64,000 bases of DNA, from positions 124,001 to 188,000 of IMG/VR virus record IMGVR_UViG_3300044712_000810; one strand, 5' to 3'. This document shows positions 37,273-64,000 of the stretch, in pieces. Source of the DNA: a virus. Within the stretch, counting starts at the first letter, position 1. Each line of letters opens with the position of its first letter. Position numbers and translations under genes: made by a program. Below the pieces are notes generated by a model that did not search any database, had not been told where the DNA came from, and was given only the letters and a program-made list of their open reading frames with translations.

Positions 37273-37878
37273 ATGAACGTCGAATTTGATTTGGGTTGGA
37301 TTATCGGCAGCATCATTGTAATATATTTCGTTAAGGATTTTCTACTTGAATTGCTTGAAGATATTGTTAATATTTTCAGAAGGAAGCCTGAACCAGTTCC
37401 AACATATATACCACGTTTAAAAGTTCCAACATTTCCACAATGGCCAGATCTTCCAAGAGATATGTCGCCCGGTGTATGGACATCTACAACAACTACAACC
37501 GAACGTGAGTTCGAAGCTGGAGAAAAATATATGGCATTGCACATTGTTCATCAAGACTACAGTGGACAAGATTTTGAAGGAACAGTATTTGATGGATGCA
37601 TTTTCGAATATGTCACGTTTCGTGAATGTGACTGTCGAAATGTAAACTTCATCAACTGTCAATTCAACAATGTGTATTTTCCTGAATCTGACTTGGAAGG
37701 TGCACAGTTTATCAACTGTAATGGACCAGTTGATTATTCCGAAGCAACTGATACAAGAAATATGGTTATTAAAACCATAGAAACTTCCAATTTGGAACCC
37801 ACAAAGAAAGTAACGAGGCCCAGGCTTGTCAGGCCCAGACCTCCTAAGAAAAAGATAAGACTCAGTTTCGAGAAGTAA
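37273..37878 (+). CDS. Membrane-anchored pentapeptide-repeat protein
   Basis: A 201-residue protein. One TM segment spans about residues 7-24 (WIIGSIIVIYFVKDFLLEL). A Pro-rich linker follows. Residues about 95-150 form pentapeptide repeats of the A(D/N)LXX kind (DFEGTVFDGCIFEYVTF, CDCRNVNFINCQFNN, SDLEGAQFINC). A basic tail ends the chain. Pentapeptide proteins can mimic DNA (gyrase inhibitors) or act as scaffolds; the TM anchor favours a membrane scaffold. Confidence 0.82.
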   Translation: MNVEFDLGWIIGSIIVIYFVKDFLLELLEDIVNIFRRKPEPVPTYIPRLKVPTFPQWPDLPRDMSPGVWTSTTTTTEREFEAGEKYMALHIVHQDYSGQDFEGTVFDGCIFEYVTFRECDCRNVNFINCQFNNVYFPESDLEGAQFINCNGPVDYSEATDTRNMVIKTIETSNLEPTKKVTRPRLVRPRPPKKKIRLSFEK

Positions 37879-37880
37879 TA

Positions 37881-37907
37881 AGTGGGGCTTCGGCCCCATT
37901 TTTATTA
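37881..37907. terminator. Bidirectional terminator
   Basis: AGTGGGGC-TTCG-GCCCCATT followed by TTTATT; it separates convergent genes. Confidence 0.88.
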
Positions 37908-38051
37908 TAACTTTTTAACTTTATCAACTGCTTGATCGATTGCACTTTCAGCTTTTTGTTCAGCAACTTGTACTATTTTTTTATTACTATATTTCTTATA
38001 AATAACTAAACCAATAAGAACACCAGCTGTGATAATGATTAATTCCCACAT
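37905..38051 (-). CDS. Small single-pass membrane protein
   Basis: A 48-residue protein. One TM segment (ELIIITAGVLIGLVIY) and a charged helical tail (AEQKAESAIDQAVDKVKKL). GGAG lies nine bases upstream. It follows the TPR gene on the same strand. Confidence 0.65.
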   Translation of the reverse strand: MWELIIITAGVLIGLVIYKKYSNKKIVQVAEQKAESAIDQAVDKVKKL

Positions 38052-38061
38052 ATTAATCTCC

Positions 38062-38886
38062 TTAATAATCTTTAAGATGTTTTGATGAAAAACTTAATGC
38101 TAATTCCGCTTCTTTTAATTCAGGCTTCAATTCAAGAACACGTCGCATACATCTTCTTGAATCTTCCCAATGACCTAATTCAATATGAATACGTCCTAGA
38201 TTAAACCATAGTGCATAATTGTTTGGTTCTATTTCAATTGCTTGATTATATAATTCAATAGCACGATCATGCTTTTTTGTTTTTCTTAACACTTGACCTA
38301 ACCTAGAATAATTATGAACAGCAGTAGGATTTAATTCAATACAACGTTCTAAAAATGTTATTGATTCTATATGTCCACTTTTAAATAATACATCCGCCAT
38401 TTCATTAATAGTATCATAATCATCAGGATATTCATTTAGTAGTTTTGTAAACTGTGATAATGCCCCATCAAATTTACGTGTTTCATATAATCTTTTTGCT
38501 TTAGTCAATCGATTCATCTTTTCCATACATTCAAAAATCATTTCTTCATCTTGTTGTTTATTATATAATTCATTAAGTTTAGGGGGCAAAGATCTTAAAA
38601 CGTTAAACATTTCATGTTCTTTACCGTATTTATAATCAAAAATTATATTTAATTGTTTAATATATTTATTAAGTGATATTAAATGTATTGCTCTTTCAAA
38701 TAGTTCTTGAAATTCTTTTCGTTCTTGTATAAACATTTCTTTATTTAATTTAGAAAATACATATAAACTAAATATGACTTGTTTTATTATGACTTCTATA
38801 TTTTTTTCACGTACAGTAGCAGTAATATTTAATAAATATCCTTTTGCCGTTTTAATTAAGTTTCGTGGGTTTTTATCATTGTCCAT
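38062..38886 (-). CDS. TPR-repeat protein
   Basis: A 274-residue protein. The N-terminal half is a helical domain of unknown type. Residues about 130-265 carry four TPR units, e.g. YETRKFDGALSQFTKLLNEY, YSRLGQVLRKTKKHDRAIEL and LWFNLGRIHIELGHWED. TPRs mediate protein-protein contacts. The TPR style is like that of the receiver-TPR gene at the left edge. Late strand, no early motif. Confidence 0.85.
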   Translation of the reverse strand: MDNDKNPRNLIKTAKGYLLNITATVREKNIEVIIKQVIFSLYVFSKLNKEMFIQERKEFQELFERAIHLISLNKYIKQLNIIFDYKYGKEHEMFNVLRSLPPKLNELYNKQQDEEMIFECMEKMNRLTKAKRLYETRKFDGALSQFTKLLNEYPDDYDTINEMADVLFKSGHIESITFLERCIELNPTAVHNYSRLGQVLRKTKKHDRAIELYNQAIEIEPNNYALWFNLGRIHIELGHWEDSRRCMRRVLELKPELKEAELALSFSSKHLKDY

Positions 38887-38915
38887 GTTTACCCTTTTAA
38901 TATTCTAAATTTTCA

Positions 38916-38924
38916 TATAGAAAT
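38916..38924 (+). promoter_or_regulatory. Early-type TATAGAAAT motif
   Basis: TATAGAAAT 78 bases upstream of the GTG at 39003. Probably also drives the permuted tRNA genes downstream. Confidence 0.8.
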
Positions 38925-39002
38925 AGTATTAGTGTACGACGAAGGTCGTAGCAAACTCATTTGTTTGTTTATTTTATTGTAAAACTCAAGGAGAACAATA
39001 CC

Positions 39003-39755
39003 GTGGCAAAACTACACGAACTACTGGCAGCTGAAAAAGACGTTAAGACCAAATCACAAAAACTCGTGATCGAAGCAAAAGACACATTCGGCAAGAAGCA
39101 TGATCACTTCACCGGCTTTACAAAGACGTATAAGCCGAAGAATGATGAAGACGCTTATGAAGCTGAAGCACTCAGCGAATCAAAAGAAATGGTTACGACC
39201 GTTGGTCGTAAACTGAATTATCTTCTTGCAAACATGGTTGATGCCATTGATATTGCATATCAGAAAGATTTGACGAACAGAGTGGCAAAAGCAGATATTA
39301 CCGTTGATGGCATTGTCATCGCATCGGACGTACCTGCAACCACACTGTTGCATCTTGAAGATCAGCTTCGCGAACTTCGTGATGTCTGTGACAAGATCCC
39401 GACACTGAAGCCTGGTATCAAGTGGGTGCTCGATGCATCTCTTGGTGAAGGCGTCTATGTCACTGAAAAGCCTGAGGTGAAAATCCGTACAAAGAAGCAA
39501 ACTGTTTACAAGACTGTCGCCCAGGCCACCGACAAACACGCCGCACAAGTTGTGGCTGAAATGCAAGATGTGAACATCGGTAAGTATGAAGAAATTCATA
39601 CTTCCGGTATGATCACTCCTGCAGATAAATCAAAACAAATGGATAAGATCGAGAAACTCATCGCAGCCGTCAAAAGGGCTCGTGCTCGTGCAAACGAACA
39701 GGAAGTCGCTTCTGGCGAGATTGCAAAGAAGCTTTTCGATTATATTACGCAGTAA
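39003..39755 (+). CDS. Conserved DUF7873-like protein
   Basis: A 250-residue protein. The GTG at 39003 has AAGGAG ten bases upstream and the chain then reads (M)AKLHELLAAEKDVKT. The layout matches a widespread family of about 240 residues: N-terminal AKL.ELLA.EK, GFTKTYKPKNDED, a central dimer-like part and a C-terminal KIEKLIAAVKRARARANE. The function is unknown; it is also found in actinobacterial and other phages. Codons are GC-rich, so it is probably abundant. It is followed by the permuted tRNAs with no terminator between. Confidence 0.78.
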   Translation: MAKLHELLAAEKDVKTKSQKLVIEAKDTFGKKHDHFTGFTKTYKPKNDEDAYEAEALSESKEMVTTVGRKLNYLLANMVDAIDIAYQKDLTNRVAKADITVDGIVIASDVPATTLLHLEDQLRELRDVCDKIPTLKPGIKWVLDASLGEGVYVTEKPEVKIRTKKQTVYKTVAQATDKHAAQVVAEMQDVNIGKYEEIHTSGMITPADKSKQMDKIEKLIAAVKRARARANEQEVASGEIAKKLFDYITQ

Positions 39756-39813
39756 TCGCTTAACAGCGTTACAAATATGGCCAAACTCATTGTGACTGCC
39801 AAGTAATACTCAG

Positions 39814-39890
39814 AGAGGAGACTGCGGTTCGAATCCGCACCGGATGCCCAAAAAACATCATCCGGTCGTCTAGCGGCTTAGGATGCCTCT
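39814..39890 (+). tRNA. Circularly permuted tRNA gene A (3' half first), Glu-like
   Basis: The 3' half (39814-39850) has anticodon-stem strand AGAGG, variable AGAC, T-arm TGCGG-TTCGAAT-CCGCA, acceptor CCGGATG, C and CCA. After an 8-base linker (39851-39858) comes the 5' half (39859-39890): acceptor CATCCGG, T8-C9, D-arm GTCTAGCGGCTTAGGAT, G26 and anticodon-stem strand CCTCT. Acceptor (7/7), anticodon (5/5) and T stems pair perfectly, so all cloverleaf parts exist in swapped order. The break is in the anticodon loop; bases next to it (CTCAG before AGAGG) suggest C-U-C (Glu), but U33 is not obvious and the junction is uncertain. Flanks pair: 39799-39804 with 39898-39903, and 39778-39784 with 39931-39937. 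Confidence 0.8.
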
Positions 39891-39984
39891 TAACCTAACT
39901 TGGTTCAATCTCAAATTCAAATTCAAATTATTGGCCAACAAGCTGAAAGGCTTAAAAGAAACTATTTCAAAATTGGTTCGACCG

Positions 39985-40091
39985 ACCATCGCTCAGGCGC
40001 GGGTTCAAATCCCGTGGGGACCTCCAAAATGCTGGGAGTTTATATTCCTAGTATTCTGGGTCCCCTAGTTCAGTGGTAGAACGGAGTCATT
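39985..40091 (+). tRNA. Circularly permuted tRNA gene B (3' half first), Gly-like
   Basis: The 3' half (39985-40026) has CGCTC, variable AGGC, T-arm GCGGG-TTCAAAT-CCCGT, acceptor GGGGACC, discriminator T and CCA. A 32-base linker follows. The 5' half (40059-40091) has acceptor GGTCCCC, T8-A9, D-arm GTTCAGTGGTAGAAC, G26 and GAGTC-A-T-T. Acceptor and D stems pair fully. U33 plus bases CC from the 3' half give N-C-C (Gly), and the T discriminator fits Gly; 31-39 is a C-C mismatch. The flanks form a long helix: 39964-39969 with 40118-40123, 39972-39975 with 40112-40115, 39976-39979 with 40107-40110 and 39982-39984 with 40102-40104. Confidence 0.78.
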
Positions 40092-40160
40092 AAACTTACT
40101 TCGGAAGAACGCAATACTGAAATGTTTTGCCAAATATCTCAAAGATATTACCCAACAATA

Positions 40161-40203
40161 GGGGGTCGCGCAGGGTAGCGCGGCCTCCACCATTTTTTAT
40201 TTA
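40161..40203 (+). terminator. Terminator after the permuted tRNA unit
   Basis: GGGGGTCGCGC-AGGGTA-GCGCGGCCTCC stem (11 bp with G-U pairs) followed by ACCATTTTTTATTTAT. Confidence 0.82.
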
Positions 40204-40214
40204 TCCAAGTTTCA

Positions 40215-40223
40215 TATAGAAAT
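40215..40223 (+). promoter_or_regulatory. Early-type TATAGAAAT motif
   Basis: TATAGAAAT 19 bases upstream of the 40243 ATG with AGGAGG between. Confidence 0.82.
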
Positions 40224-40242
40224 ATAACCTGTAGGAGGGACT

Positions 40243-40455
40243 ATGGACACATCAAAATTTAAGATTTCGTACATGATCAACGGCCTTCCGGTTTACGATG
40301 TTAGATCTGGTGAAACACATGAGTTGTGGAAAACTGGTCGTAACTGTAAGAATATTGGGCTTACTGAAAGTGAAGCCCACAACGTATTAGATCAACAATT
40401 TAAAGGAATTTCATCCGAACAATTCGACGAGTTCTGGGAAGGTTACCACAACTAG
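40243..40455 (+). CDS. Small early protein
   Basis: A 70-residue protein (FKISYMINGLPVYDVRSGET, SSEQFDEFWEGYHN), alpha/beta and acidic at the end. Function unknown. First gene of a two-gene unit. Confidence 0.72.
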   Translation: MDTSKFKISYMINGLPVYDVRSGETHELWKTGRNCKNIGLTESEAHNVLDQQFKGISSEQFDEFWEGYHN

Positions 40456-40464
40456 GAGACGTTC

Positions 40465-40749
40465 ATGCGCTGGGAAAAAACAGGACACATGTCTGAACAA
40501 CTTCGAATTACACCAACAATGGTGGTTGAAGTTTTTCAAGGTACTGTTCAATGCAGTTCCGCAACATGGGTTGGAGTAAAATTCTGCGATAAATTAATTA
40601 AAGATGGCGGAACATTCGAAGAAGCCAAAAGATTCGCAGAAGCGTGGATTAAACATGAAATTGCCAGAGCTGTAGAATCCGTTAAAATAATGGAAGCCCC
40701 TGGAGAACATATACCTGTTGTAAATGTTCTCTATCGGCCAGAAGATTAA
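40465..40749 (+). CDS. Hypothetical early protein
   Basis: A 94-residue protein with GGAG upstream. KLIKDGGTFEEAKRFAEAWI is a clear amphipathic helix; the end is beta-like. No family recognised. Confidence 0.72.
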   Translation: MRWEKTGHMSEQLRITPTMVVEVFQGTVQCSSATWVGVKFCDKLIKDGGTFEEAKRFAEAWIKHEIARAVESVKIMEAPGEHIPVVNVLYRPED

Positions 40750-40753
40750 CAGT

Positions 40754-40786
40754 GGGGGCGAGAGCCCCCATTTACTTTATTTTTGC
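40754..40786. terminator. Terminator between convergent genes
   Basis: GGGGGC-GAGA-GCCCCC followed by ATTTACTTTATTTTT. Confidence 0.85.
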
Positions 40787-41692
40787 TTCATTTCTATTAA
40801 AACTTTGTAATTCAGTTCTTGATACTTCCATTGCTTTAAGACCTAATACTGATAAACTCTTAACCGGTATAAATCCGCCTGATATTTTATTTGGTGCCAA
40901 GTCAATATTGACTCGACCTGGAACACGTTTATGTGCTATTGAATACTTCTTAAGCATATCAGGAGTATTAATCATATACATTAATTTGTCTTTAATTTCA
41001 TTTATTCTCATTTGTTTCTTAAACAGAATTTGAATATGAAATCCAGTTTTACCAGTGAATACAATACGTGCAGATTCAACATCCGAATACTTTATTACAT
41101 AATCATAAATATCTTCGGCTGCTTTCTTATTATTTTCAAAGTTATCACTATCAATGTCCAAAAGTCCAAACCATTCACGTTCACCCATTTCACAATGAAT
41201 ACTTAGGGTTCGGCCGGAGATCTTATTTTCGTAGTTTGAACTGTTAAGTTTTATATATCCTGATGGTGATTCAGAATCTTTTCGTTTAACAATTGTTGAA
41301 TTCAATTCAGGAACTATAAAAAATATTAAGTTTCTATTATTGGTTTCATCAATTATTTCTTTTTTGTGTTTCATATAATAATCATGAACATCTTTTTGAG
41401 TCAAACCAGATGGATAAAATTCATTTTTAACTATTACAGTATCTGGATTTTCTAATTGTTTTGTTTGTGGTAATATTTCTTGTATTCTTCCTACTTGCCC
41501 ATCTTCTAATCTTACTTTAATACCACGTGTATGTTGTGATTTGCTTGTGAGAATATCTTTAACTATGCCGGTTGTTAATTTACCTGTAGGTTGATCTTTC
41601 TTTAATACTATATTTACTTTAATACCAGGCTTAATATTCGCTCTATAAAAATTATCGCTTTCGAACATGTTTGTCATACATAGTGAAAACAT
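40772..41692 (-). CDS. YwbE-like domain fused to a LigD-polymerase/primase-like domain
   Basis: A 306-residue protein. Residues about 18-73 match the YwbE family closely in pattern: IKPGIKVNIVLKKDQPTGKL, then a segment ending IKVRLEDGQVGRIQEI. Residues about 90-280 look like an archaeo-eukaryotic primase of the LigD polymerase type: YPSGLTQKDVHDYYMKHKK at the start, LLDIDSD (D179, D181) as catalytic pair, FTGKTGFHIQI (His219) and RVNIDLAPN (D264) as third acid. It could fill DNA gaps or synthesise short primers. The N-terminus MFSLCMTNMFE has only weak similarity to the leader set. GGAG lies nine bases before the ATG. Late strand. Confidence 0.78.
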   Translation of the reverse strand: MFSLCMTNMFESDNFYRANIKPGIKVNIVLKKDQPTGKLTTGIVKDILTSKSQHTRGIKVRLEDGQVGRIQEILPQTKQLENPDTVIVKNEFYPSGLTQKDVHDYYMKHKKEIIDETNNRNLIFFIVPELNSTIVKRKDSESPSGYIKLNSSNYENKISGRTLSIHCEMGEREWFGLLDIDSDNFENNKKAAEDIYDYVIKYSDVESARIVFTGKTGFHIQILFKKQMRINEIKDKLMYMINTPDMLKKYSIAHKRVPGRVNIDLAPNKISGGFIPVKSLSVLGLKAMEVSRTELQSFNRNEAKIK

Positions 41693-42386: not shown

Positions 42387-42566
42387 ATGATTCATACGTT
42401 AATTGATAATATTGAAAAGGCATTCGCATCAATTCCAACCGCAGCAGCCGATAAAGATTTATTGGATGACTATGAACTTTTACTTGATATGCAAATTGGT
42501 ATCGTTGAAAAAGACGATATTGTTATTTATGCAATAAAGGAAAAGTTCCATGCCAATTACAATTAA
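42387..42566 (+). CDS. Small early protein
   Basis: A 59-residue acidic, helical protein (DKDLLDDYELLLDMQIGIVE). Its end overlaps the next start by 17 bases. Confidence 0.7.
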   Translation: MIHTLIDNIEKAFASIPTAAADKDLLDDYELLLDMQIGIVEKDDIVIYAIKEKFHANYN

Positions 42567-42942
42567 TGCCAAATTTAAACCTGGTCAAAAAGTAAGAATT
42601 AATCTTGGTGAAGATGGATCTTTTGTTGCAACCATTGATGGTGTAGCAATAAACAAAGATCGTATATTCTATTGCGTATCTGCCGGTGGCATACGATTAT
42701 ATACAATTGAAGAAAAAGTCATTGAAGATCTTTATTTTGGTGACAATAATAAAATGATAAGTCAGATCTTCGAGCACATTGCATTTGATTGGACATTTGA
42801 CGATGTTCCCCGTATAATGGGTAAAGAAAATATTGATATTGCCCAACGCTTATATGAATTTCAAGATATTATGACAGTTCGTGAGTTAACAGAAGAAGAA
42901 CAACATGAACTTAATAGATTATATTTGGAATACGCTTGTTAA
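42550..42942 (+). CDS. Hypothetical early protein
   Basis: A 130-residue protein. The first 60 residues look like a small beta-barrel (FKPGQKVRINLGEDGSFVA, IFYCVSAGGIRLYTIEE); the C-terminal half is helical. No family recognised. Confidence 0.72.
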   Translation: MPITINAKFKPGQKVRINLGEDGSFVATIDGVAINKDRIFYCVSAGGIRLYTIEEKVIEDLYFGDNNKMISQIFEHIAFDWTFDDVPRIMGKENIDIAQRLYEFQDIMTVRELTEEEQHELNRLYLEYAC

Positions 42943-43270
42943 TGATTGGTCATTTTTTGTAATATATTTTATAGTAAGTATAATTGCAAGAATTATAGGA
43001 TCATTTGTATTTGAATTTAACACATCATTATATAATTTGCGTAAATTTTTAATGAATATTAAATGTATCATCAATCCACAATTTAAAGAAATGGTTGATT
43101 TAGTTGAAACTATTCTTAAATTTATACGTAATTATGAATATCATGATGATAATGATAAAAGGTCAATACATTATAAAGTCCGACAAATACGATATGATTT
43201 ACTAGCATATCGAGAATATACTGAAGAAGATAAATTATTTCTTCAGAAACTACTACTGGAGTTGCTATGA
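42905..43270 (+). CDS. Membrane protein with family C-terminal helix
   Basis: A 121-residue protein. A hydrophobic segment (FFVIYFIVSIIARIIGSF) lies near the N-terminus. The C-terminus YTEEDKLFLQKLLLELL matches the C-terminal helix of the expanded small-protein family at 58-63.6 kb. The only in-frame ATG near the start lies inside the preceding gene (38-base overlap). Confidence 0.65.
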   Translation: MNLIDYIWNTLVNDWSFFVIYFIVSIIARIIGSFVFEFNTSLYNLRKFLMNIKCIINPQFKEMVDLVETILKFIRNYEYHDDNDKRSIHYKVRQIRYDLLAYREYTEEDKLFLQKLLLELL

Positions 43271-43473
43271 AAAAAATCAAAAGACTTAATAGTAATGCAA
43301 ATAGAAAAGAATTATCTTCAATTTTAGATTTATTTAATATCTCTATTGTTAGATATATGACGATCGATGATCTTCGTGAATTACGTAGACTTGATCATGT
43401 TGTAAATAAATTTAAATTTGTATCGTATATAAATGTAATAGCAGGACAAAAACTTCTTACGAGATGTTTATGA
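43267..43473 (+). CDS. Small protein of the expanded family (divergent)
   Basis: A 68-residue basic protein coupled to its neighbours by 4-base (ATGA) and 10-base overlaps. The end (VIAGQKLLTRCL) is a divergent form of the family helix Q-K-x-L-L-x-x-L. Confidence 0.65.
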   Translation: MKKIKRLNSNANRKELSSILDLFNISIVRYMTIDDLRELRRLDHVVNKFKFVSYINVIAGQKLLTRCL

Positions 43474-43667
43474 CAATATTCTTTAATCCTGAAGATGATA
43501 AAGAAATATATTCACAAGTTGTTGGATTGTTATATCCAATGTTATATTATCGTGATCATATGACGGATGAAGATTCTCAAATGTGTTATGATTTAGCTGC
43601 TCATCGTTGGTTACAAACTGAAGAAGATTTGTTAACCGCCCAAAAGTTGGTTATAAAGTATATATGA
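43464..43667 (+). CDS. Small protein of the expanded family
   Basis: A 67-residue protein ending TEEDLLTAQKLVIKYI. The stop overlaps the next ATG (ATGA), so it is translationally coupled. Confidence 0.68.
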   Translation: MFMTIFFNPEDDKEIYSQVVGLLYPMLYYRDHMTDEDSQMCYDLAAHRWLQTEEDLLTAQKLVIKYI

Positions 43668-59858: not shown

Positions 59859-59886
59859 TAAAAAAAAGTCCCATGTGGGACCTTAA
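59859..59886 (-). terminator. Terminator of the small-paralogue array
   Basis: On the minus strand, GTCCCA-CATG-TGGGAC followed by TTTTTTTATT, overlapping the last codons of the 59883 gene region. Confidence 0.88.
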
Positions 59887-60152
59887 AGGTGTTTAATTAA
59901 TATTTTTTGTATTTCTTCTCTCATGCCATAGTCCATAAATTCAAAAATTACATCTTTTAATGTAACACATTCTGTTACATTTTTACGTCTGAACCATATT
60001 TCATAGTCTTTAAATTTAATTGATATAATATGCGTTTTATCACCACGCCATACACATTCTGTTTGTATATAATTTATAAGTTCATCAATTAATACATTTT
60101 TATGATTATTCGATTGCATCAATTCATATAGTTCTAGATCTCCGGGTTTCAT
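59883..60152 (-). CDS. Expanded-family protein, array member 14
   Basis: An 89-residue member: helical start (ELYELMQSNNHKNVLIDEL), strands (IISIKFKDYEIWFRRKNV), family end EFMDYGMREEIQKILIKHL. 4-base overlap with the upstream member. Confidence 0.75.
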   Translation of the reverse strand: MKPGDLELYELMQSNNHKNVLIDELINYIQTECVWRGDKTHIISIKFKDYEIWFRRKNVTECVTLKDVIFEFMDYGMREEIQKILIKHL

Positions 60153-60406
60153 AAGTGTTCAATTAATGCTTTAAGCATTTTAAGTTTCATATCCTCATCA
60201 AAGAAAGGATCTATTATTGAATGAAAGTTTGTAGTTGGTACAACTTCATGATCTTTATATCTATAAATCATTCGTTCATTCATTGCATCCCATTCCCATT
60301 TTATATTCAATAAATTATGCCAATCAGGATATTTACTTGATCTTAATCCAAATGCATAATAGAATTGATCTATTATCTTATAATCTTCATCACTAATACG
60401 TGTCAT
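60149..60406 (-). CDS. Expanded-family protein, array member 13
   Basis: An 85-residue member: strands around MIYRYKDHEVVPTT, end FFDEDMKLKMLKALIEHL. ATGA overlaps on both sides. Confidence 0.75.
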   Translation of the reverse strand: MTRISDEDYKIIDQFYYAFGLRSSKYPDWHNLLNIKWEWDAMNERMIYRYKDHEVVPTTNFHSIIDPFFDEDMKLKMLKALIEHL

Positions 60407-60660
60407 ATATTCTCCACTATAAATTTCTTTAAGTTAAGTTCCATATCATCGTCAAGCATTTCTTTTACTATATTTTTACCATCAAAGTCATCATAATAAA
60501 CTTTAGATCTTAAACCTTTATATTCATATCCAATATATCTTTCCTCAGTGTCTTTATCCATCATTTGATATATATTAATTCCTAAATAATTTAATAACAA
60601 TCTTCTACCATTAGATAATCTAAATGCTATATCAAGTAATTCTTTTTGTTCATCTGTCAT
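60403..60660 (-). CDS. Expanded-family protein, array member 12
   Basis: An 85-residue member: LLLNYLGINIYQMMDKDTEE, strands YIGYEYKGLRSKVYY, end MLDDDMELNLKKFIVENI. Confidence 0.75.
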   Translation of the reverse strand: MTDEQKELLDIAFRLSNGRRLLLNYLGINIYQMMDKDTEERYIGYEYKGLRSKVYYDDFDGKNIVKEMLDDDMELNLKKFIVENI

Positions 60661-60929
60661 AGTTGTTCCAACAAATACTTTTGCATGTTCACCCGAAGAT
60701 CTTCATCCCAGAAATGTCGGAATGCATTGCGTAATCCTTTTTTATATGGAATTCCATTTTCATGTTTATGTAATTGACCTTTATATTCATATAAGTTACC
60801 TTGAATGACTCCCTGGTGAATTATAAAGAAGTATTTAATGCCAATTTTTTTACATACATCTTCAGTCGATTCTAATTTGTCAGAAACTGAAATGTATGTT
60901 CTCATTAGTTGAAAGTCTGAACGAGTCAT
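60657..60929 (-). CDS. Expanded-family protein, array member 11
   Basis: A 90-residue member: VCKKIGIKYFFIIHQG, strands GNLYEYKGQLHKHEN, end FWDEDLRVNMQKYLLEQL. Confidence 0.75.
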   Translation of the reverse strand: MTRSDFQLMRTYISVSDKLESTEDVCKKIGIKYFFIIHQGVIQGNLYEYKGQLHKHENGIPYKKGLRNAFRHFWDEDLRVNMQKYLLEQL

Positions 60930-60937
60930 ATCTCTCC

Positions 60938-61225
60938 TTATATGTTTTGTATTATGTACTTCTGTATTAGAAGTGCCAACTCATCATCAACAAGTTTACA
61001 AATACATGACGCAATATAACTTATATAAAACTCATCATTAAGTCCATTTCTATATTCACGAAGTGTATCAACAAATTTAAATTTATAAGTTTTATTCTTA
61101 TATGTTAATGACCAATAATCTTCTAAATGATCATAATCCAAATCAAATAATGAATTCACGAAAAACTCATCACTGTTTTTATGAACTAAATTGCAATAAG
61201 TATAGACTAGATCATAATGTTTCAT
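60938..61225 (-). CDS. Expanded-family protein, array member 10
   Basis: A 95-residue member: strands SLTYKNKTYKFKFVD, end LVDDELALLIQKYIIQNI. The only member separated from its downstream neighbour by a gap (8 bases) rather than an overlap. Confidence 0.75.
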   Translation of the reverse strand: MKHYDLVYTYCNLVHKNSDEFFVNSLFDLDYDHLEDYWSLTYKNKTYKFKFVDTLREYRNGLNDEFYISYIASCICKLVDDELALLIQKYIIQNI

Positions 61226-61479
61226 ATTAGGTCAAGTACTTCACGTTGGATTTTTATCTTTATGTCATCATCCCAAAAGTATTTAATGACTGCACGTTTA
61301 ATAGTCATAGATCTTTTGACCGATCCTTTCTTGATTTCATCTCTGTGTATGCCGTGTCGTTTATAGTAAAATGTCTTATTCGCAGTATTATATTCAATAC
61401 CAAGATCTTCTAATAATCTGGTATTGTTTCGTTTATATAAGAACGTATTAAGCATTTGACATTCAACAACAGTTAACAC
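61222..61479 (-). CDS. Expanded-family protein, array member 9
   Basis: An 85-residue member: RLLEDLGIEYNTANKTFYYK, strands, end YFWDDDIKIKIQREVLDLI. Confidence 0.75.
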   Translation of the reverse strand: MLTVVECQMLNTFLYKRNNTRLLEDLGIEYNTANKTFYYKRHGIHRDEIKKGSVKRSMTIKRAVIKYFWDDDIKIKIQREVLDLI

Positions 61480-61748
61480 TACAACTCCTCCAAAATGATT
61501 CTTTGTATTTTAAGTTCTAAATCAAAATCCATAAGTGTTTCCATATTTTTAAGAAATGCTTTTTGTGAATATGAGAATACTGATTCAATTTCATAATCTT
61601 TATAATTTAATCTATCAGTATATCCTCTAATATCAAGACTATATTCAGCTCTTTCACATTCAATTCCAAGTTTTTCATACAACTCGCCTGTTTGAGTTTT
61701 ACCATGATATAGTATTAATAAATTCTTTTGCATTTCATTTAAACTCAT
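61479..61748 (-). CDS. Expanded-family protein, array member 8
   Basis: An 89-residue member: LYEKLGIECERAEYSLDIRG, end LMDFDLELKIQRIILEEL. One-base overlap downstream. Confidence 0.75.
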   Translation of the reverse strand: MSLNEMQKNLLILYHGKTQTGELYEKLGIECERAEYSLDIRGYTDRLNYKDYEIESVFSYSQKAFLKNMETLMDFDLELKIQRIILEEL

Positions 61749-62038
61749 AAAACCTCCACTAATATTTTTTGTATTGCTATCCGCATATCATCATCCAGTG
61801 CTTGTAATATTAAATCACCCATAAAAAGTATATCTCTTTCTCTAGTAATATTATACAATACATAATGCATATATACATTATCTTTATATTTTACATAAAA
61901 TACTTTTGATTCGTCATTATTATTCCAATCTGTATCATAATCACAATCAAATCCTATATTTGAAAAGAATCCATCCAATTCATTATCTGAATGATATTCA
62001 GCATACATAGTTACAAGTGCAATATCGGCTTCGATCAT
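61745..62038 (-). CDS. Expanded-family protein, array member 7
   Basis: A 97-residue member: FFSNIGFDCDYDTDWNN, strands VFYVKYKDNVYMHYV, end ALDDDMRIAIQKILVEVL. Confidence 0.75.
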   Translation of the reverse strand: MIEADIALVTMYAEYHSDNELDGFFSNIGFDCDYDTDWNNNDESKVFYVKYKDNVYMHYVLYNITRERDILFMGDLILQALDDDMRIAIQKILVEVL

Positions 62039-62328
62039 ACTAACTCAATAATATACTTTTGCATTTCAAGTCGCATGTCTTCATCAAACAAAACCTCCAA
62101 AGCAGGATACATGTCACGGTGAAAATCAAAGAATGCTCGTGCATGTGGAATATAAACTCGATGTTTATATTTAATTTGATCACCAATACACACATATTCT
62201 TTATTAAATCTATATTTGTATTTGATTTTAAATCGTTCAAATAATTCACGTCTTGATATTAATCTGTTGTCATATATTAACTCAACAAATATATTTATTA
62301 ATTTACGATCATCTGCATTATCTGTCAT
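62035..62328 (-). CDS. Expanded-family protein, array member 6
   Basis: A 97-residue member: strands YVCIGDQIKYKHRVYIPH, end LFDEDMRLEMQKYIIELV. Confidence 0.75.
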   Translation of the reverse strand: MTDNADDRKLINIFVELIYDNRLISRRELFERFKIKYKYRFNKEYVCIGDQIKYKHRVYIPHARAFFDFHRDMYPALEVLFDEDMRLEMQKYIIELV

Positions 62329-62606
62329 ACTCGTTCAACCACATATTTCATCATATTAAGATACATATCATCATCCATAAGTGTTAATATTATATTAGAT
62401 AAAGTTGGTGGATTTTGCATTTCAGTTCCACGTTCAATAACTTTATCATTATACTTGTATACTGTGACTTCACCAAGATCTTCTTCATCATAAACACTTC
62501 GTTTAATTCCTAATGGAATAAATAGCTTTATATTAAAATACCCTGGTCTTTCTTTACTTCTAAAGAAATTCATATATGTAGTTAATAGTTGTTCTCTGTT
62601 TGTCAT
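62325..62606 (-). CDS. Expanded-family protein, array member 5
   Basis: A 93-residue member beginning MTNREQLL (as does the plus-strand member at 43831): strands EVTVYKYNDKVIERG, end LMDDDMYLNMMKYVVERV. Confidence 0.75.
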   Translation of the reverse strand: MTNREQLLTTYMNFFRSKERPGYFNIKLFIPLGIKRSVYDEEDLGEVTVYKYNDKVIERGTEMQNPPTLSNIILTLMDDDMYLNMMKYVVERV

Positions 62607-62842
62607 ATTAACTCCAGTAACAGTTTTTGATACTGAACTAACAAATCAGGATCTTTAAATGCCTTAACAATAGCAGATACATCTTCAATGGTTAGATGTT
62701 TATTAACCATGCGATATTCATAATTGGAATCACGTTTATAAAATCTAACTTTACCAACTTTATATTTATACATATCCATTCTAATATTTAACGCATTAAT
62801 AATCCAATACGACCAACCATCTAAATTTGTTTCAGGAGCCAT
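62603..62842 (-). CDS. Expanded-family protein, array member 4
   Basis: A 79-residue member: strands YKVGKVRFYKRDSNYEYR, end AFKDPDLLVQYQKLLLELI. It overlaps the upstream member by 22 bases. Confidence 0.75.
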   Translation of the reverse strand: MAPETNLDGWSYWIINALNIRMDMYKYKVGKVRFYKRDSNYEYRMVNKHLTIEDVSAIVKAFKDPDLLVQYQKLLLELI

Positions 62843-63111
62843 TTGTTGTACCTTATAGTTAGTTGTTCATCATCAAACTTACGTATTAGTATCCATAAGT
62901 TATATAAGTCATTAGGAAATTGTCGTTTAATAACAATCTTACCATAGTGTTTAGTCCATGCATTATCGGATGGGCCGGAATATTTAAATTGATATTTAGT
63001 TACGACTTTTCTATGTAAGTCATACGTATCTACTGATTTGAATTCACTATATGTTATATTTAATTCAAACAAAATTTGTGACATTCGATGAAATGTAATA
63101 TGTTTATTCAT
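62821..63111 (-). CDS. Expanded-family protein, array member 3
   Basis: A 96-residue member: LFELNITYSEFKSVDTYD, strands, end KFDDEQLTIRYNKWLLKQI. Confidence 0.75.
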   Translation of the reverse strand: MNKHITFHRMSQILFELNITYSEFKSVDTYDLHRKVVTKYQFKYSGPSDNAWTKHYGKIVIKRQFPNDLYNLWILIRKFDDEQLTIRYNKWLLKQI

Positions 63112-63359
63112 ACAAGTAACAACAATATTTTTTGATATTGAATTTTTAGATCAATATTATCAAATTCATTCACAATAGATTCAATATCTTCTAAACATGT
63201 TACATATTCTTTACGAATTACTTCTTTATTTTTAAATGAAAATTTATATCCATCATCAAAGTTATGATACATATGAGTTTTTATCTTTAACCCATCAAGT
63301 ATCATACGAAACCGTTTGGTTGAATAAAGAATCATTACCGATTTGCCAAGAAGGTTCAT
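63108..63359 (-). CDS. Expanded-family protein, array member 2
   Basis: An 83-residue member: MILDGLKIKTHMYHNFDDG, strands YKFSFKNKEVIRKEY, end EFDNIDLKIQYQKILLLLV. Confidence 0.75.
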   Translation of the reverse strand: MNLLGKSVMILYSTKRFRMILDGLKIKTHMYHNFDDGYKFSFKNKEVIRKEYVTCLEDIESIVNEFDNIDLKIQYQKILLLLV

Positions 63360-63589
63360 ATAAGCTCCAGTAGAAGTCGTTGATATGCGATTGTTAGTTC
63401 TTCATCGTTGATAAATTCAACGATATCGGCAAGTCCATCAATAGTTACTGGGGCAGTACCCATGATACCAATGCGTTTACCTTTATAAAATATAGCAGAA
63501 GTCGGTGTGACTTTATCATTTTCATAAATTGTAGACATTTTGATATTATTATCACGAGTAAATTTAATAAGACAATCAAAAGGATTCAT
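63356..63589 (-). CDS. Expanded-family protein, array member 1 (promoter-proximal)
   Basis: A 77-residue member. The ATG at 63589 follows AAGGAGG and a TATAGAAAT motif. Strands SAIFYKGKRIGIMG, end FINDEELTIAYQRLLLELI. It is the only array member with a strong RBS; the others depend largely on ATGA coupling. Confidence 0.78.
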   Translation of the reverse strand: MNPFDCLIKFTRDNNIKMSTIYENDKVTPTSAIFYKGKRIGIMGTAPVTIDGLADIVEFINDEELTIAYQRLLLELI

Positions 63590-63614
63590 TTTATCCTCCT
63601 TAATACACCAAACT

Positions 63615-63623
63615 ATTTCTATA
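63615..63623 (-). promoter_or_regulatory. Early-type TATAGAAAT motif of the array (minus strand)
   Basis: Reverse complement ATTTCTATA, 25 bases upstream of the 63589 start. The only such motif for 3.7 kb. Confidence 0.82.
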
Positions 63624-63642
63624 TGAAAAGTTATAAAACTAA

Positions 63643-63688
63643 AAAATGGGCTATACGAGATCTTAGCCCGTATAGCCCAATAAAAAAA
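63643..63688. terminator. Bidirectional terminator
   Basis: GGGCTATACG at 63648-63657 pairs with CGTATAGCCC at 63669-63678; A/T runs flank it on both strands. It closes the gene at 63690 and isolates the array. Confidence 0.88.
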
Positions 63689-63689
63689 C

Positions 63690-64000
63690 TTATTTTGGAT
63701 ATGTACTCTTAACAAAATCTACTTTTGCAATTAAGTCTTCCATATCTTTACCAATATTGATATTCTGTGATTTAAGTACTTTAAATCCTTTTATGATTGC
63801 ATCCAATTGTTCACCAAAGTATTCATATGAAATATTACGTAACTCTTGATAATTAGTTTTAATAAAATCTGGATCGGCAATAACTGGGACTGGATCCCCA
63901 ATCATAATATGATAACGTTCAGTTGTAATTGGTGGTATTGGTAAACCATGTTGTTTATCTATAACATCAACTATTGGCGTATCATATTTAAAGTTATCTG
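63690..64000 (-). CDS. Hypothetical protein, 5' end outside window
   Basis: The frame is open from the right edge to a stop at 63690 (about 103 residues visible). Readable parts: KQHGLPIPPITTERYH, MIGDPVPVIADPDFIKT and a C-terminal helical region (ISYEYFGEQLDAIIKGFKV). No internal RBS marks the Met at 63905 as a start, so the true start is likely beyond 64000. No family recognised. Confidence 0.65.
   Translation of the reverse strand, partial: DNFKYDTPIVDVIDKQHGLPIPPITTERYHIMIGDPVPVIADPDFIKTNYQELRNISYEYFGEQLDAIIKGFKVLKSQNINIGKDMEDLIAKVDFVKSTYPK

Follow-up and report, generated by a model that had tools for sequence, protein, structure and literature searches.

Two permuted tRNA-like modules of a phage genome are probably noncoding RNA mimics of the YrlA type

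Two adjacent RNAs of a jumbo phage genome, denoted A and B (Table 1), are probably noncoding YrlA-type tRNA mimics (YrlA being a bacterial Y RNA) rather than decoding tRNA genes. Both are built like YrlA-type tRNA mimics and probably act like them; membership among the Ro-bound Y RNAs is not established by their sequences. The claim is limited to YrlA-like mimics because the putative Ro-binding signature is absent from A and weak in B, the ro60 gene is about 125 kb away, and the scores obtained with R1, a covariance model built from Ro-linked modules, are close to noise. A and B lie in the analysed window, a stretch of 64,000 nucleotides corresponding to positions 124,001 to 188,000 of the IMG/VR record IMGVR_UViG_3300044712_000810.

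Table 1. Coordinates of the RNA modules and of other features of the phage genome (window positions, unless the phage record is named)
Feature	Position	Strand	Evidence
DUF7873 gene, directly 5' of A	38961-39755	+	Pfam PF25283, 1.3e-73
RNA A, whole: permuted tRNA-like module and basal stem	39778-39937	+	sequence reading, folding
A, core	39814-39890	+	sequence reading, genome scanner; R1 model, 30.3 bits at 39812-39892 (within tandem-tRNA noise)
A, anticodon-stem strands, 3' AGAGG; 5' CCTCT	39814-39818; 39886-39890		read from sequence
A, T stem, TGCGG/CCGCA	39823-39827/39835-39839
A, acceptor, CCGGATG/CATCCGG	39840-39846/39859-39865		7/7 paired
A, acceptor loop: discriminator C, CCA, 8-nt linker	39847-39858	+	sequence reading
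A, CCCA; linker	39847-39850; 39851-39858
A, D-arm	39868-39884
A, basal stem, TGGCCAA/TTGGCCA; CCAAGT/ACTTGG	39778-39784/39931-39937; 39799-39804/39898-39903
RNA B, whole: second permuted tRNA-like module, long imperfect basal stem	39956-40128	+	fold z -5.8; flank stem z about -3
B, core	39988-40090	+	Rfam YrlA, 27.7 bits (relaxed threshold); R1, 47.5 bits; scanner, 7/7 acceptor
B, T-arm; D-arm	39999-40015; 40068-40082
B, acceptor, GGGGACC/GGTCCCC	40016-40022/40059-40065		7/7 paired
B, TCCA after the acceptor 3' strand	40023-40026
B, acceptor loop, mostly a 12-bp hairpin	40027-40058	+	folding
Terminator-like hairpin 3' of B	40161-40198	+	1 found against a mean of 0.7 in shuffles, not significant by count
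Small-ORF tandem array	59883-63715	-
ro60 (Ro60/Rsr, 540 aa)	record 37360-38982
Array of about 10 Y RNAs directly behind ro60	record 39030-40880 (L003 19030-20000, L004 1-900)
rtcB	record 42514-43629
tRNA with anticodon CTA	record 290747-290821 (L014 10747-10821)

The core of A carries the elements of a tRNA with the 3' parts first: the 3' strand of the anticodon stem, the variable loop, the T-arm, the acceptor 3' strand and CCCA are followed, after the linker, by the acceptor 5' strand, the D-arm and the 5' strand of the anticodon stem. A sequence-only reading of this locus had described a circularly permuted tRNA gene, with the T-arm, acceptor 3' strand and CCA upstream of the acceptor 5' strand and D-arm, and each named element was found at its place. 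The acceptor, T and anticodon strands all pair, the linker is indeed 8 bases long when counted as the loop after CCCA, and the proposed pairing of the sequences outside the two halves was recovered as the basal stem. About 175 bases beyond A, B is built to the same design. In both, the tRNA-like head sits on a stem made of the RNA's own ends, where a tRNA would carry the anticodon arm.

The same reading had considered chance unlikely, and this held: when halves were exchanged among the phage's own 32 tRNAs, a 7/7 acceptor formed in 7 of the 992 pairs (0.7%). Compared with shuffled sequences, A folds moderately well (5 of 200 shuffles were equally stable; z -2.1), its flank stem reaching z -2.15 with 70-nt flanks and a non-significant -0.48 with 50-nt flanks, and B folds well, with none of 200 shuffles as stable. 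Across the 314,837-base record, the scanner, with matches sorted by eye, yielded four fully paired permuted modules unexplained by ordinary tRNAs, namely A, B and two modules linked to ro60 (Y2 and C, see below). Among the tested halves (those of A, B and C, and the 3' half of Y2), none was a close copy of a phage tRNA.

Standard searches of the window returned little: neither ARAGORN nor Rfam at the gathering score gave a match anywhere in it. At a relaxed threshold, B, and not A, matched YrlA (RF02553; Table 1), for which the gathering score is 69, a value reached in none of the 10 Ro60 loci scanned at that cut-off. This match of B led to a search for Ro60 in the 314.8-kb phage record, which was found to encode a full-length Ro60/Rsr protein with profile matches to vWA_Ro60 (3e-13) and TROVE (1.6e-6) and matches of 4e-16 to 4e-14 to solved Ro60/Rsr chains. 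The Y RNAs directly behind ro60 are mostly plain hairpins with a two-part stem and the common motif AGGTA..TTCAACG..AGTCCT, the AGGTA..TTCAACG part of which is present in eight exact copies and slightly changed in the remaining members; they alternate with ordinary tRNA-Met, tRNA-Asp and tRNA-Tyr. Two array members contain permuted modules, each with a 7/7 acceptor: Y2 is Leu-like, with a variable arm, CCA and an 85-nt acceptor loop, and C is Ala-like (G3-U70), with a full-length Rfam YrlA match of 36.2 bits. The phage also encodes RtcB. Thus, a single phage combines Ro60 and RtcB with a set of tRNA look-alikes that, by our reading, comprises Leu-like (with variable arm), Ala-like, Glu-like and Gly-like types. 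Jumbo phages encoding RtcB and TROVE proteins are already on record (PMC7824862). Elsewhere in the record, a tRNA with the anticodon CTA is a possible amber suppressor.

The permuted module was then sought, as a T-arm, a fully paired acceptor of 6-7 bp, a loop and a D-arm, in 80 bacterial Ro60 loci and, as controls, in 43 Ro-less viral loci (359 kb). It was detected in 38 of the bacterial loci, at least two of which (L195 and L219) resemble ordinary tandem tRNAs, nearly always on the same strand as Ro60 and within about 1 kb upstream; none was detected in the controls. The acceptor stems differ in sequence among modules yet remain paired, which is partly by construction because the scanner demanded pairing. 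Several Ro60-encoding phages also carry such modules. Given this recurrence at Ro60 loci and absence from the controls, RNAs of this class are normally built in permuted order, whereas an encoded CCA is unusual among them. A gapped scan of viral contigs for the Y RNA motif returned apparent chance matches only, none accompanied by Ro60, and the stretches scanned around RtcB relatives contained no convincing permuted module. In Gordonia phage GMA2, a Pistol ribozyme (Rfam, above the gathering score) is flanked by a Y RNA module on one side and by tRNAs on the other (L232 9419-9475).

A feature of Microbacterium phage Magritte annotated as tRNA-Arg(tct) (L147 5347-5423) overlaps a Y RNA that contains a permuted module and is probably a misannotation. 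When a permuted tRNA pattern turns up in a bacterium or phage, a Y RNA should be the first possibility to examine, as the Magritte "tRNA-Arg" illustrates.

R1 gave 57.8 bits for C, 47.5 for B and 30.3 for A; chance matches between tandem tRNAs reached 45.7 bits at best, so that the score of A falls inside the tandem-tRNA noise. A covariance model restricted to the module failed as a classifier, not telling modules from tandem tRNA pairs. A DNA similarity search in phages produced no match to the A-B region, and searches of viral contigs via the DUF7873 protein, Ro60 or terminase found no close relatives in which covariation of A and B could be seen.

If A and B were true permuted tRNA genes, in line with the original proposal of end-joining, the outer stem would be cut, RtcB would join the anticodon-loop ends into a circle, and the acceptor loop would then be opened by RNase P with trimming of the 3' end. 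The products would resemble tRNA-Glu(CTC) and tRNA-Gly. As in permuted tRNA genes, the 3' half lies upstream of the 5' half with a linker at the acceptor end, the stems and CCA are intact, the flanks pair, and an RNA ligase, RtcB, is encoded by the phage. The joined loop of A can read CTC (Glu), and that of B can combine U33 with either of the Gly anticodons ACC and TCC, although the anticodon stem of B contains a C-C mismatch; such anticodon matches are, by an estimate that was not computed, not rare by chance. U33 is nearly universal among tRNAs, whereas the halves of A, joined in any 7-nt register, place A at position 33 and so never form a canonical anticodon loop. Reading and folding of the two would-be splice regions revealed no common structure and no BHB motif at A or B, and a tRNA-splicing endonuclease (PF01974) was not found in the phage record. 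As to self-splicing, one of the routes envisaged, Rfam matched no ribozyme or self-splicing RNA in or around A and B. The ordinary tRNAs of the phage already include Glu(TTC), Gly(TCC) and Gly(GCC), and modules of the same kind are found in RNA genes linked to Ro60, for which no joining is required. The permuted fold and the flank pairing of the proposal therefore stand, and the tRNA gene requiring end-joining is not supported, in view of the YrlA anatomy and the lack of U33 in A. We consider such genes very unlikely, end-joining being retained as a slight possibility because the phage encodes RtcB; a version in which a bacterial virus has permuted tRNA genes whose RNAs are circularised by RtcB, and which derive from, or are evolving into, Y RNAs, appears fractionally less credible again.

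The encoded CCA raises another alternative, a two-piece tRNA-like RNA in which cleavage by RNase P and trimming of the 3' end would be confined to the acceptor loop. A CCA end would thereby be exposed on an RNA whose pieces are kept together by the stem, as in two-piece permuted tmRNA, and the RNA could then be charged or bound by EF-Tu. NCCA directly follows the acceptor in A, B, Y2 and two of the three Magritte modules, compared with 3 of 45 bacterial modules (one of the three being an ordinary tRNA pair), where the acceptor is instead mostly closed by a short loop. However, CCA is possibly a mere remnant of a tRNA ancestor, and the acceptor loop of B is a 12-bp hairpin. Furthermore, A has C73 and C1-G72, which are unusual for tRNA charging. 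We regard this possibility as improbable, although less so than end-joining.

The placement of the two RNAs is relevant to a third alternative, namely that A and B are decaying remnants of tRNA genes, or a stability or processing element of a 3' UTR whose tRNA-like head has no role. A begins 23 nt past the stop codon of the DUF7873 gene, a terminator-like hairpin follows B, and a promoter scan detected nothing exceeding chance for either RNA; A also bears no Ro signature. These features are compatible with a 3' UTR element, but the T, acceptor and D stems are all intact in both RNAs, the folds are stronger than expected, and two complete modules would not be expected to survive decay. This explanation is unlikely, albeit a little less so than the two-piece RNA.

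For the favoured YrlA-type mimics, the short gap, the terminator-like hairpin and the lack of a promoter above chance suggest that A and B are part of the DUF7873 transcript, from which they would be cut or of which they would form the end. The RNAs would keep their hairpin form, with no splicing, and the head would display a tRNA elbow to proteins that recognise it, such as modification enzymes and PNPase. In the service of the phage's Ro60 system, A and B might be adapters guiding a nuclease, or decoys that draw off tRNA-attacking enzymes. Of all the steps in this scheme, direct binding to the phage Ro60 is the most doubtful, and we propose it only tentatively; alternatively, A and B could share the function of the head as decoys without Ro60.

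Two further observations concern the surroundings of these RNAs. The hairpin that follows B reads as a 7-bp Ala-type acceptor with G3-U70 and then ACCA, the acceptor-like stem being closed by a D-arm-like hairpin and followed by six T. Farther downstream in the window, a tandem array encodes about 14 small ORFs with a common C-terminal motif resembling DDDMxLxxQKxLLExL, and similar small ORFs occur near 283-284 kb of the record.

A putative Ro-binding signature, deduced from common sequence rather than from binding data, is typical of Ro-associated modules: GGUUAYC 5' of the T-arm, with UUCAACG as its apparent counterpart in the phage array. Nothing like it is present in A, and only GGTTCGACC in B.

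Among known systems, the permuted tRNA genes of algae and Thermofilum pendens (PMC3978253) likewise have the 3' half upstream and an intervening sequence at the acceptor end, whereas A and B lack a BHB junction and a splicing endonuclease, and A lacks U33. Two-piece permuted tmRNA (RF04321) shares the permuted acceptor domain and the CCA inside a loop; unlike it, both A and B possess a complete D-arm, their 3-70 pair is U-A instead of G3-U70, and Rfam tmRNA_permuted matched neither. The Y RNAs of Ro60-encoding phages (Magritte, Gordonia phages GMA2 and Mareelih, and Mycobacterium phage Sebata) contain the same module, and the two Magritte copies with CCA resemble A and B in this respect as well; these RNAs differ from A and B in lying near the Ro60 gene and in carrying the Ro-binding signature.

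YrlA-type Y RNAs bind Ro60 and PNPase and are modified by TruB and DusA. With YrlA (RF02553), A and B share the order of T-arm, loop-closed acceptor and D-arm, a long stem formed by their own 5' and 3' ends (strong in B, moderate in A), and a genome encoding a Ro60 ortholog and RtcB. They differ from YrlA in lying far from ro60 (Y2 and C lie beside it), in lacking the Ro-binding signature, in their encoded CCA and longer acceptor loops, and in scoring below the Rfam gathering cut-off. As described in PMC8394870, YrlA consists of a large stem formed by the paired 5' and 3' ends together with D, T and acceptor arms, and in YrlA/RYPER particles the stem carries Rsr and the tRNA-like domain carries PNPase. 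The combination of rsr, Y RNA and rtcB is known from Salmonella, where, according to PMC7790460, the operon is rsr-yrlBA-rtcBA; in the parts compared, rsr, Y RNA and rtcB, the phage matches this operon.
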